This document shows, piece after piece, positions 55,211-58,564 of a DNA stretch of 64,000 bases. Below the pieces are notes generated by a model that saw only the letters and a list, made by a program, of their open reading frames with translations, had not been told where the DNA came from and ran no database searches. Each line of letters opens with the position of its first letter. Within the stretch, counting starts at the first letter, position 1. Position numbers and translations under genes: made by a program. This DNA comes from Idiomarina seosinensis (GTDB lineage: Bacteria; Pseudomonadota; Gammaproteobacteria; Enterobacterales; Alteromonadaceae), in NCBI RefSeq assembly GCF_003987275.1, contig NZ_PIQF01000002.1, forward strand, positions 186,001 to 250,000. The letters are read 5' to 3'.

Positions 55211-56156
55211 TCTAGTTAGTGGTGGCCAATATATTCATGCTCCTGACGACCTTAACCGGTTGTTACAAGACATCTACGATGAAGCATTGACCATTAAACA
55301 AGGTAAAGTCGCCGACTATATTCCGGCACTGGCTGCGGTGAACCCTGACTACTGTGCCTTAACTTTGGCGACCTTGGACGGCGAAGTTTTTAATGTCGGC
55401 GATACTAAGCAACAATTTTCTATTCAGTCAGTGTCCAAAATTTTTGGGCTGATGCTGGCGATGGAGCGTTTAGGCGACGACCTTTGGCAGCGCGTTAAAA
55501 TGGAGCCTTCCGGTCAGGCTTTTAACTCTATCGTGCAGCTTGAGTGGGAAAAAGGTATTCCACGAAATCCGATGATTAACGCCGGTGCAATATTAGTTAG
55601 TGATGTGCTGGTTAGTCATTACTCCGCAAGTAAAAATGCGGTGCTGAGCCTAGTTCGTAGCCTCTGTGGTAATGACCGGATATACGCCAACGATGAGGTC
55701 CACCAATCTGAAAAAGAACACGGTCACAGGAATTCGGCGCTCGCCCACCTAATGAAGAGCTTTGGTAATATTGAATCCGATGTAGACGAGTTGCTGGATC
55801 ATTATTTTTGGCAGTGCGCGCTAACCATGACCTGTGAAAATCTTGCTCGTTCACTGACCTTCTTAGCCAATGACGGGGTTTGCCCCTTTTCCAAAAAGGA
55901 AATCATGTCTAAGCGTGATTCGCAGCGAATTAATGCCTTGCTTTCAACCAGCGGAATGTATGACCAAAGTGGCGAGTTTGCTTTTACGGTTGGTGTACCC
56001 GCAAAAAGTGGTGTCGGTGGTGGTATCGTCGCAATTGTTCCGGACTTTGGCGTCATCGCCGCCTGGAGCCCTAAATTGAATGAATACGGCAACAGTGCAA
56101 GAGGCATGTTTATGGTTAGGGAACTCGCGAATAAATTGGGGCTTAGTGTTTATTAA
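55200..56156 (+). CDS. glsA: Glutaminase
   Basis: Serine-type glutaminase hydrolysing glutamine to glutamate and ammonia. The 318-residue protein has the beta-lactamase-like SIQSVSKIFGL (catalytic Ser-x-x-Lys), GIPRNPMINAGAI, LMKSFGN and PAKSGVGGGIVAIVP motifs. The likely start is TTG 55200 with GGAG upstream; it overlaps the thioesterase gene. Its stop overlaps the stop of the convergent binding-protein gene within TTAA. Confidence 0.95.
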   Translation: MTRDLVSGGQYIHAPDDLNRLLQDIYDEALTIKQGKVADYIPALAAVNPDYCALTLATLDGEVFNVGDTKQQFSIQSVSKIFGLMLAMERLGDDLWQRVKMEPSGQAFNSIVQLEWEKGIPRNPMINAGAILVSDVLVSHYSASKNAVLSLVRSLCGNDRIYANDEVHQSEKEHGHRNSALAHLMKSFGNIESDVDELLDHYFWQCALTMTCENLARSLTFLANDGVCPFSKKEIMSKRDSQRINALLSTSGMYDQSGEFAFTVGVPAKSGVGGGIVAIVPDFGVIAAWSPKLNEYGNSARGMFMVRELANKLGLSVY

Positions 56157-56932
56157 CGACGATATAACTGGAACCGTTGCAAGTTAAAGCGAGCAAATAA
56201 CCGATCAAGCAAGCCTTGTCGGGCAACTTCCCGCATTAGTTGCTGCATTGTTTCAACGCTTATTTTCTCGTTTTCCCCAACGACGATAGCGACTTTATAT
56301 TGTTGCTCTATACGGTCGGATATCAACAATTTATCCAAATAATCCACTGATGAATTTTTTAGCGCCGCCAATAGTTCATCGTTAACTACTGCTGCATCAA
56401 TGCGCCCGCCGACCAACATTCGCAGGTTGGTTATTCTGGAGTCCGACAAATAAACTCGATAGCGCTCGGCCACTTCAGCGGAGTTCATCTGTTCTCCCGC
56501 CATCAAGTAGTGATAGCCCTTTACTCCACCTAGTACCTTTCCTTCTAAATTATCAAAGTAACCCTGGTCTTTTTTTCCATCTTGCAAGGCCACTAACCGC
56601 TCGCGGCCCTGTAATAACGGAACAGTGCTACTTACTTTTACATCGCGATTTTGCCAGCCCCAAAACGTAGACTCAAAAAACATAACATCGCAGCAGCCAC
56701 TTTCAGATAAAGCTTCATAGCGCCCGTTCGGCGGGATCGCCTGCAAAATAAATTCGTAGGTGGTCTGGTAATTATTAAGTAGCTTTATCAGCTCGCGCGT
56801 AACATCAGTTTCCAGCCGATCCGAAAAAAATGGAGGAAAGTCGTAAGCTGCCACATACACTGACTTTCGTGCAGAAGCAGTGTTGGCAAAAAAGAAGGTG
56901 CTGATCAGTAATAGAACAATTAATCGTTTCAC
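56153..56932 (-). CDS. Orphan periplasmic binding protein, amino-acid (SBP_bac_3) type
   Basis: Exported solute-binding protein, 259 residues. A GTG start at 56932 gives a clear signal peptide (KRLIVLLLISTFFFANTASA) followed by VYVAAYDFPPFFSD, the type-3 binding-protein opening, LVGGRIDAAVVNDELL and a C-terminal helix. The reading frame continues upstream through a repeat region, but that part is low-complexity and not family-like. No transporter genes are adjacent. The ribosome site is weak, and the gene lies 447 bases past tuf, beyond its terminator. Ligand unknown. Confidence 0.75.
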   Translation of the reverse strand: MKRLIVLLLISTFFFANTASARKSVYVAAYDFPPFFSDRLETDVTRELIKLLNNYQTTYEFILQAIPPNGRYEALSESGCCDVMFFESTFWGWQNRDVKVSSTVPLLQGRERLVALQDGKKDQGYFDNLEGKVLGGVKGYHYLMAGEQMNSAEVAERYRVYLSDSRITNLRMLVGGRIDAAVVNDELLAALKNSSVDYLDKLLISDRIEQQYKVAIVVGENEKISVETMQQLMREVARQGLLDRLFARFNLQRFQLYRR

Positions 56933-57036
56933 AGAGTTAGCATACACTATTAAGTTGTCCCCATCATACCGGAGACGGCTTGCGGTGCAAGCCTTAAGAC
57001 TCACTTCGTTCGCAGCGGTTTGCTCCATGCCGGGCC

Positions 57037-57174
57037 GGCTGTGTGTTGCTTCGCAACGGGGCTTTGTTGCTACGCAACGGCTGTTTGGCCCGGCCGGGCC
57101 GGCTGTATATCGCTGCCGCGATGGCTGTTTGTGCGCTTGCTTTGCTTGCGCACGGCTGTTTGCGCCTGCGGCGC
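57037..57174 (+). repeat. Left array of spacer-plus-hairpin units
   Basis: Six units follow one another without extra bases. Each is an 8-base spacer then a hairpin. Spacers: GGCTGTGT 57037, GGGGCTTT 57058, GGCTGTTT 57079, GGCTGTAT 57101, GGCTGTTT 57123, GGCTGTTT 57154. Hairpins: GTTGC-TTC-GCAAC, GTTGC-TAC-GCAAC, the 14-base palindrome GGCCCGGCCGGGCC, ATCGC-TGCC-GCGAT, GTGCGC-N11-GCGCAC and GCGCC-TGC-GGCGC. Arm sequences differ while spacer and geometry are kept. Confidence 0.85.
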
Positions 57175-57226
57175 GGGGAAAACCAAATAAATACAGTTGT
57201 TGTTTGGGCTTTGTCTTTGAATTACC

Positions 57227-57309
57227 GCGCGCAGCGCAAAAAGCCGGAGCCGCCGAAGGCAGGCTACAAACAGCCATCGCGCAGCGATAAAAAGCCGCTC
57301 CGAAGGAGC
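57227..57309 (-). repeat. Right array of spacer-plus-hairpin units (opposite orientation)
   Basis: Read on the minus strand: GCTCC-TTC-GGAGC (57309-57297), GGCTTTTT, ATCGC-TGC-GCGAT (57288-57276), GGCTGTTTGT, a bulged AGCC/GGC hairpin with TTC loop (57265-57248), CC, GGCTTTTT, GCGC-TGC-GCGC (57237-57227). Spacer and loop types equal those of the left array in the opposite direction, so the two arrays converge on an AT-rich centre at about 57178-57225. Confidence 0.8.
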
Positions 57310-57330
57310 AAAAAATCGCGAGCCTACAGG

Positions 57331-57360
57331 CATAAAAAAACCCGGCCGAAGCCGGGTTTT
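57331..57360 (-). terminator. Intrinsic terminator of the str operon after tuf
   Basis: On the minus strand AAAACCCGGC-TTCG-GCCGGGTTTT is a perfect 10-bp stem with a stable TTCG loop, extended into a seven-T run. It lies 20 bases past the tuf stop. Confidence 0.92.
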
Positions 57361-57379
57361 ATAAACGTCGAAGCGTTTA

Positions 57380-58564
57380 TTAGTCCATGATTTTCGATAC
57401 AACGCCCGCACCAACAGTACGGCCGCCTTCACGGATTGCAAAGCGCAGACCTTCGTCCATTGCGATTGGAGCAATCAGCTCTACAACAAACTTAAGGTTG
57501 TCGCCTGGCATGACCATTTCTACGCCTTCTGGCAACTCTACAGCACCTGTTACGTCCGTTGTACGGAAGTAGAACTGTGGACGGTAGCCTTTAAAGAATG
57601 GCGTGTGACGGCCACCTTCGTCTTTGCTCAGTACGTATACTTCAGCTTCAAACTTAGTATGCGGAGTGATTGTTCCTGGCTTCGCCAGTACCTGACCACG
57701 CTCTACGTCATCACGCTTAGTACCACGCAACAAGGCGCCGATGTTCTCGCCCGCTCGACCTTCGTCTAGCAGCTTACGGAACATCTCTACACCGGTAACT
57801 GTGGTCTTGGTGGTGTCTTTCATACCAACAATTTCACACTCGTCACCTGTGCGAACGATACCACGCTCTACACGGCCTGTGACTACCGTACCACGACCTG
57901 AAATCGAGAATACGTCTTCGATTGGCATGATGAACGGCTTATCGATGTCACGCTCTGGCTCTGGAATGTACGAATCCAGTGCGTCCGCTAATTCAACAAT
58001 CTTCTTCGCCCAGTCTTCGTCGCCTTCCAGCGCTTTCAAAGCTGAACCCTGGATGACTGGCAAGTCGTCGCCTGGGAATTCGTATTCTGATAACAGTTCA
58101 CGAACTTCCATTTCTACCAGCTCTAGCAACTCTTCATCGTCAACCATGTCACATTTGTTCATGAATACAACGATGTAAGGTACGCCGACCTGACGTGACA
58201 ACAAGATGTGCTCACGCGTCTGTGGCATTGGGCCGTCAGTCGCTGCTACTACCAGAATAGCACCGTCCATCTGCGCCGCACCGGTGATCATGTTTTTAAC
58301 ATAGTCAGCGTGACCTGGGCAGTCTACGTGCGCGTAGTGACGCGTTGGCGTGTCATATTCAACGTGTGACGTTGAAATAGTGATACCACGCTCTTTCTCT
58401 TCTGGCGCGTTATCGATGGCTGCGAAGTCTTTCGCCGCACCACCGTATACTTTTGCCAAAACAGTTGTAATAGCAGCAGTTAGGGTAGTTTTACCGTGGT
58501 CAACGTGACCAATGGTGCCGACGTTTACGTGCGGCTTCGAACGTTCAAATTTTTCTTTAGACAT
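57380..58564 (-). CDS. tuf: Elongation factor Tu
   Basis: GTPase delivering aminoacyl-tRNA to the ribosome, 394 residues. G1 [10 protein letters not shown] (residues 19-28), G3 DCPGHADY and G4 NKCD are intact, and domains 2 and 3 end [14 protein letters not shown]. It is the last gene of rpsL-rpsG-fusA-tuf (the tufA position); a second tuf copy is usual in this group but not in the window. GAGGAA lies five bases before the ATG and a strong terminator follows. Confidence 0.99.

Follow-up and report, generated by a model that had tools for sequence, protein, structure and literature searches.

Arrays of spaced mini-hairpins with variable, matched arms in a few Idiomarina species

The DNA analysed here, hereafter the window, is a stretch of 64,000 nucleotides (contig 2, 186001-250000) from the 2.69 Mb genome of Idiomarina seosinensis (G000), and next to a tuf gene it carries two facing arrays of small hairpins separated by a nearly constant 8-base spacer. 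With a probability of roughly 40%, we consider these arrays as members of a low-copy spacer-hairpin family of a few Idiomarina species, whose units are gained and lost and whose stems are matched by copy-back template switching, by selection, or by both. They combine a near-constant linker with arms which differ from one hairpin to the next yet match, a layout seen in a few related marine bacteria; a literature search whose scope left out most subscription journals gave no description of such arrays among the matches listed.

The array beside tuf and the grammar of its units

The initial annotation proposed at least ten short inverted repeats near tuf, and ten hairpins were indeed read by eye at 57037-57309 of the window, which is the array proper, six in a left array and four in a right one. 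Their spacers are 8 bases long and GGCTGTTT-like, and the units abut each other with zero leftover bases; reading the sequence bore out the described grammar of a spacer directly abutting a hairpin, mirrored on the other strand. In the left array (57037-57174, + strand), the spacer comes first and the hairpin second. Its hairpins have 13, 13, 14, 14, 23 and 13 bases and are preceded, in order, by GGCTGTGT, GGGGCTTT, GGCTGTTT, GGCTGTAT, GGCTGTTT and GGCTGTTT: GTTGC-TTC-GCAAC (57045-57057), GTTGC-TAC-GCAAC (57066-57078), GGCCC-GGCC-GGGCC (57087-57100), ATCGC-TGCC-GCGAT (57109-57122), a 23-base hairpin with outer arms GTGCGC/GCGCAC and core TTGCTTTGCTT (57131-57153), and GCGCC-TGC-GGCGC (57162-57174). 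A 52-base centre without assigned strand (57175-57226), which starts with GGGGAAAA and was compared by eye with other elements, separates this array from the right one (57227-57309, - strand), which follows the same grammar on the opposite strand with hairpins of 11, 22, 13 and 13 bases and the spacers AAAAAGCC, AAACAGCC and AAAAAGCC between them. The 22-base compound hairpin (57246-57267, - strand core TGCCTTCGGC) has an imperfect stem, with one mismatched outer pair (GGAGCC versus GGCTAC). It is followed by ATCGC-GCA-GCGAT (57276-57288, - strand), whose outer arms are the same as those of the left unit at 57109-57122, and by GCTCC-GAA-GGAGC (57297-57309, - strand).

The neighboring ORF (57380-58564, - strand) is one we take to be tuf, coding for elongation factor Tu. 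Going downstream from it, one meets an ordinary inverted repeat outside the array (57337-57360, - strand), terminator-like by eye and absent from the list of a loose terminator scan, then the right array, the centre and the left array. The originally delimited range, 56933-57379, does hold the array, but it also takes in this repeat and a hairpin at 56977-56993. The latter is a 7-bp hairpin, GGCTTGC-GGT-GCAAGCC, located outside the array and lacking the array spacer. Long, probably spurious ORFs (56153-57277 and others overlapping it) cross the array on both strands, and automatic annotation may place the start of the downstream gene within the array.

Folding and shuffle scans were run on 57030-57315. 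A strict scan, which asked for a perfect stem of 5 bp or more and a loop of 3-4, found 7 non-overlapping hairpins there, for a mean of 1.2 and a maximum of 5 in 1000 dinucleotide shuffles; none of the shuffles reached 7, which upholds the first statement that these repeats are not due to chance. Among the strict hairpins, 57090-57102 is the 14-base unit of 57087-57100 parsed in another way, and the 23-, 22- and 11-base units, which lie outside the strict scan, bring the number of hairpins to ten when counted. Hairpins with TNC or GNA loops numbered 5, for a shuffle mean of 0.06 and a maximum of 2, and the predicted folding was far more stable than that of the controls, both as RNA (- strand, z = -7.8) and as DNA (+ strand, z = -7.75).

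The grammar was then read in 34 stretches (the window, L139-L169, L070 and L073, those of the two I. aquatica genomes G003 and G005 having been picked around matches) by locating the spacers with at most one mismatch and ignoring the arms. Of 178 same-strand spacer pairs lying 11-31 bases apart, 118 enclose a stretch pairing at no fewer than 4 of the 5 outer positions, and this proportion rises to 57/61 for the stretches of 13 bases; the remaining spacer pairs look like background, with a few, inside arrays or at their edges, coming from a slipped parse. These 118 paired units (50 in G005, 39 in G003 and 29 in G000) have inserts of 13 (57 cases), 22 (22), 15 (12), 14 (9), 23 (7), 21 (5), 11 (5) and 16 bases (1), and their 5' spacers are GGCTGTTT (57), GGCTTTTT (19), GGCTATTT (12), GGCCGTTT (6) and rarer forms. 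Among the 36 distinct 13-mers, which had been selected at 4/5 pairing or better, 24 different 5' arms are found and 25 stems of 5 bp are perfect, for a mean of 2.2 and a maximum of 6 when the 3' arms are re-dealt 1000 times. All of them have T at position 6 and nearly all have C, C and G at positions 5, 8 and 9, the four outer pairs being variable, so the tip of the hairpin is nearly fixed as C-TNC-G, or C-GNA-G on the opposite strand (loops TGC 16, TTC 11, TAC 4, TCC 3, TGT 1, TTT 1). GNA loops form unusually stable DNA mini-hairpins. In the 22- and 23-base units it is a longer core which is kept, the outer five or six pairs being variable. A chain scan blind to the spacer, over 616,765 bases, gave 17 chains of at least four hairpins and 0 in one shuffled copy, and 19 chains of three hairpins (several of them plainly chance) for 3 in the shuffled copy. 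We rejected a general excess of TNC/GNA hairpins as a candidate property: over 21 stretches, their number was raised above the Markov expectation mainly in the array-bearing ones, plus L150. This last stretch (G000:C2:20001-40000) has 7 TNC/GNA triloop hairpins for 2.8 expected, though it holds no array of this family.

Sites in the genome and in relatives

The copies elsewhere that the initial annotation had suggested looking for do exist: a BLAST search of the genome with a 440-base region returned 13 matches, four of which correspond to the tuf-terminator part alone, and revealed further arrays. After joining units within 600 bases, 25 sites were obtained in the stretches read of the three genomes, 9 in G000, 6 in G003 and 10 in G005. 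Those of G000 are at both tuf copies, at purA and tRNA genes, between cheR and flgB, between flgF and flgG, near fliK, between rpsT and murJ, inside ribF and inside flhF. The names ribF, flhF (an SRP54-type GTPase), fliK, purA and MurJ are supported by Pfam, which also shows glutamate dehydrogenase, M28 peptidase and acyltransferase domains; the genes presumed to be flgB, flgF, flgG, cheR and rpsT were named by recall from their sequence. At the second tuf copy of G000, the array is 90% identical and has one 21-base unit fewer, of the kind seen at 57066-57078. The role tied to tuf alone that had been considered at the start is too narrow because arrays also lie inside the coding sequences of flhF and ribF, as well as between flagellar genes and beside purA, and because 13 other Idiomarina genomes with at least one tuf end read have, by eye, no array at tuf.

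The pattern of a single unit matched 10 times in G000, 5 in G003 and 14 in G005, at least one of these 29 matches being unpaired (G005:C1:285186), and it had 0 matches in the other 16 of the 19 Idiomarina genomes; the reversed pattern, used as control, had none in these three genomes and one in each of five others. Two further weak pieces, both in the ribF of G009, came from a DNA search. A pattern of two spacers matched in 19 of 98 relatives, and the 23 such stretches tested outside G000, G003 and G005 (repeats from G031 and one from G086 being left out) paired at just 0-3 of 5 outer positions. In named genomes the unit pattern gave 7 stretches, 6 of them in Idiomarina aquatica (18_TX and SN-14) and 1 in Geobacillus, which we take as a chance match, and searches for viral, plasmid and phage homes of the arrays gave no match. 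A tree built from the first 660 bases of ribF in 18 genomes grouped G000, G003 and G005 with G008, G009, G013, G018 and the long-branch G012 (support 0.94), and the three are not an exclusive trio in it. Within G000, the paired copies lie in two zones (C1 134-173 kb and C2 242-262 kb), and in a set of 20 stretches the 15 placed regardless of matches (20 kb each) hold no unit of the GGCTGTTT-spacer family, with the reservation that only stretches of the genomes were read, so that arrays built on very different spacers may have escaped notice in other places. Arrays also flank an acyltransferase gene in G003 and G005 (L070 837-1006 and 2785-3039, L073 761-951 and 2775-2903, by eye). There, a comparison of the two genomes shows the cores of both arrays inverted with respect to the flanking DNA, the two cores being inverted copies of each other (by eye). 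The gene order around the site is identical, contrary to an inversion of the whole gene-bearing stretch, which we had considered.

Inside ribF, an in-frame insertion is found at the same place of the flavokinase domain in G000, G003, G005, G009 and G018; it is absent in 13 of the 18 genomes read, G014 being unreadable with the motif used. Its spacers are of AAACAGCC-type in G000, G009 and G018 and of other types in G003 and G005. Relatives have array-free sites at tuf and ribF (compared by eye), of the kind against which the target-site duplication of a facing-ended mobile element (MITE) would be sought, and the ribF state of G008 and G013, sisters of G018, is either older or, equally, the result of a 27-base deletion between GCGCC repeats. 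Birth of a unit de novo in G018 ribF from a host hairpin was a candidate that we abandoned, since the unit is also present in G009 and a deletion can account for what G008 and G013 have. In G009 and G018, ribF also contains a hairpin preceded by GTAG whose stem is, by eye, similar to that of repeats at RAYT loci. The flhF arrays of G000 and G005 are made chiefly of 21- and 30-base units. Since a 23-base hairpin lies at one end of the G000 flhF and ribF arrays, the reading frame is kept by the whole array and not by every unit.

A second family uses an unrelated spacer, TTGCTTGGC or TTGCTAGGC, or TTGCTTGGC / GCCAAGCAA (9 bases), with the same grammar of variable-arm hairpins. Its sites are cheR-flgB of G005 (G005:C2:266558, L164 1490-1790), both tuf copies of G003 (L084, L098) and the neighborhood of PF05635 genes (L182, L183). 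The two-spacer pattern of this family matched 7 times in G003 and 6 in G005, 12 of these 13 stretches pairing at 4 or more of the outer 5 positions; it had no match in the 17 other Idiomarina genomes searched, and its matches in three other genera (60 genomes searched) were tandem repeats or unpaired. At cheR-flgB and at tuf, different families occupy the same place in different species. Because the second family shares the layout, the process does not seem to be tied to a single sequence.

Covariation of the arms

The proposal that arms differ while their pairing is conserved could be examined in five homologous right half-arrays: the two tuf copies of G000, a contig end of G005 (with the tuf left flank and terminator present and tuf itself off the contig), and the purA side of G003 and G005. 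The first hairpin of each half-array, poorly aligned, was excluded. In this small set of five sequences, 7 of the 20 pairs have changes in both arms, none changed on one side while keeping the pair, and one-sided changes broke 3 of the 20 pairs (4 of 97 cells); 95.9% of the cells pair. None of 500 shuffles reached the observed number of paired cells, of two-sided changes or the score, and slid partners gave 0-1; the number of pair types was not unusual (363/500 shuffles). The covariation suggested as a check is therefore present.

Comparing the two tuf arrays of G000 gives 1 arm substitution (92-102 positions), whereas the spacers and loops (108-119 positions) have 6 or 7, a contrast built on 7-8 substitutions whose counts depend on the placement of the 21-base gap: with the gap on a whole unit there are 9 differences (3 in spacers, 3 in loops or cores, 2 in the centre and 1, pair-breaking, in an arm), and with the automatic gap 10 differing positions. 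Orthologous units of G003 and G005 have mostly the same arms (by eye), which indicates that the arms are not fast-changing. Of the 435 pairs in the 82 distinct inserts, 5 are G-T mismatches, 9 A-C (three in one sequence family) and 10 other, broken stems being undercounted since these inserts were pre-selected at 4/5 pairing at least. The lack of G-T excess on the spacer strand speaks against selection acting on RNA of that strand alone. A covarying ladder of pairing between left and right spacers was considered and dropped: folds show spacer-spacer pairing, but spacer variants of equal rank from the centre do not correspond (by eye).

Transcription, mobility and known repeat systems

Could the arrays act at the RNA level? 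The units resemble weak terminators, a hairpin with a U-rich spacer (GGCUGUUU or GGCUUUUU) behind it, and facing arrays, which would present the units in this orientation to transcription coming from both directions, might damp read-through or protect 3' ends, a function that we regard as possible though rather doubtful. It would account for the orientation rule: at all 17 of the 25 sites holding both orientations the + units are left of the - units, the reverse never being found (8 sites hold a single orientation), with the restriction that sites shared between genomes are not independent. The terminator-like matches in 56900-57400 (6, partly overlapping, for 1.2 expected in a loose scan), the gene 3' ends facing an array within 80 bases at 14 of 25 sites (ORFs of at least 130 aa, one of which may be spurious), the opposite, A-rich orientation of the units relative to the gene in flhF (G000, G005) and ribF (G000, G009, G018), and the higher stability of the spacer strand in 62 of 89 contexts go in the same direction. 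But tuf already has a terminator-like repeat ahead of the array, the spacer strand does not favor G-T pairs, the mean predicted stabilities are nearly equal (-8.3 versus -8.1 kcal/mol), and the usual spacer GGCTGTTT makes a poor U-tract, with a G in the T run and GG between stem and tail. Moreover, arrays are also within coding regions, and the rpsT-murJ site lies between divergent genes in G000, G003 and G005. Considering the orientation rule and the U-rich spacer, the arrays may plausibly help, to a mild degree, in stopping transcripts that arrive from both sides. Putative binding of a nucleoid or single-strand-binding protein requiring spaced hairpins would be suggested by the common 21-base step, about two helical turns by arithmetic; units of 22, 23, 30 and 31 bases break this step, the unit pattern is absent in 16 of 19 genomes of the genus, and we hold such a site for extremely improbable.

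The dispersion of the copies and the array-free sites of relatives recall mobile repeats, and a tyrosine (Y1/RAYT) or other transposase might read the hairpin shape and the spacer, and not the stem sequence. Y1 transposases occur in 11 of 19 Idiomarina genomes, one GGCTGTAG spacer precedes a hairpin at an array end (L140), and REP families elsewhere have stem variants, according to PMC3733652. In that paper, REP or GTAG- and CGTC-tagged palindromic repeats pair with RAYT transposases, and they are, like our arrays, short bacterial hairpins, often clustered, some in genes and some with paired stem variants. The arrays differ from them in having a GGCTGTTT-like spacer on both sides and no GTAG/CGTC tag, and in conserving the tip while the stems of neighbors are nearly free. 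Among our 118 units, no such tag abuts a stem (the one-mismatch search could not count GGCTGTAG, and a separate search for GGCNGTAG ahead of a hairpin gave one case, L140 10244), the 24 different 5' arms in 36 distinct 13-mers leave no constant stem, and no transposase gene flanked by the array repeat was found at the six Y1 loci examined out of 12 retrieved (14 matches), so the first opinion that these are not standard REP sequences stands. Four of these six loci have other GTAG-tagged repeats with nearly constant stems and two have none; at two of the six, a single exact array-family spacer occurs, outside any array, and no transposase was noticed beside an array, where neighbors are partly named. 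The RAYT/Y1 loci flanked by distinct GTAG-tagged repeats are L171, L174, L178 and L180. With the two-zone clustering in G000 and the 0/15 hit-blind stretches, which are unlike free transposition, a transposase-driven repeat seems to us unlikely. A further mobile origin, for which we see very little chance, would make the arrays the flanking or orphaned structured ends of an element with a four-helix protein of the 23S-rRNA-intervening-sequence type (PF05635). Eight PF05635 matches occur in 5 of 19 Idiomarina genomes, and four (L182, L183, L188, L189; G000, G003, G005) have hairpin arrays of two spacer types on one or both sides, joined under a looser scan only by a fifth (L184, G018), whereas the three others have no adjacent array, L184 shows no hairpin excess, and of 30 class-wide PF05635 loci none has such arrays, although six hold mildly more hairpins than 20 shuffles and another repeat is present at one. 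At rpsT-murJ, G000 carries a PF05635 gene and G005 a nucleotidyltransferase-like ORF, so that both look like cargo. The latter (L165 18927-19220), presumably a small nucleotidyltransferase, sits between the facing arrays of the gap. PF05635 four-helix genes are positioned at L140 10253-10600 and L159 3078-3461, as well as in L182, L183 and L184.

Other known systems share single traits with the arrays. The BOX elements of Streptococcus pneumoniae are modular intergenic repeats with a varying number of inner units, a property common to both, but their inner modules are conserved in sequence. The window gave 0 Rfam matches over the gathering threshold, and the initial exclusion of CRISPR holds: identical repeats with variable spacers are not found, the near-constant part having just 8 bases and the variable parts being self-complementary. 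PMC2800124 (sponge mitochondrial hairpin elements) and PMC4524435 (LIMP/HyLIMP palindromes) describe hairpin families, some in tandem, which invade intergenic DNA; these are organellar and of other sequence. The HyLIMP stems show complementary changes as our arrays do, and the sponge elements conserve stems and vary loops, the opposite of what we see.

Origin and maintenance of the arrays

In the family that we favor, the unit consists of a nearly fixed 8-base spacer and a mini-hairpin with a nearly fixed C-TNC-G tip. Units are gained and lost in tandem, in 21-base steps for the common unit, differences in unit number being observed directly, and they are often arranged as two facing arrays about a short centre, mostly at gene ends and sometimes in-frame inside genes. 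During replication, one arm would serve as template for the other through copy-back template switching, favored by hairpins that are small and very stable, and this arm-to-arm templating is most likely the reason why the stems stay mostly matched; selection against broken stems possibly contributes. Template switching makes and keeps hairpins, as PMC8794818 reports, with perfect stems from one event and multibase compensatory changes, as here, but those hairpins are described for RNA genes, and ours are in tandem with a fixed spacer. The mostly two-sided change, the few arm substitutions and the grammar common to two spacers fit copy-back template switching. However, one-sided pair-breaking changes (3/20 pairs) mean that unpaired intermediates exist, and thus selection with compensation fits nearly as well; it leaves the same pattern, and both can act. 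A mutational process alone does not explain the two-zone clustering in G000 and the constant facing layout. A broader possibility, which we advance only tentatively, is that the inherited identity of an array is its spacer and hairpin tip, the stem being self-templated: arrays might form around any spacer, lengthen one whole unit at a time (often 21 or 30 bases) and have matched stems without kept sequence, the two unrelated spacer families of these related species then representing two births of one process.

A repeat layout of this kind is largely invisible to searches built on conserved repeat sequence. Compensatory change in stems is usually viewed as proof of a selected RNA structure, and the 82 distinct small stems and cores, some of them in genes, offer a natural series for comparing two-sided change with copy-back driven by mutation, a question that the cultured strains of this bacterial genus would make open to testing.
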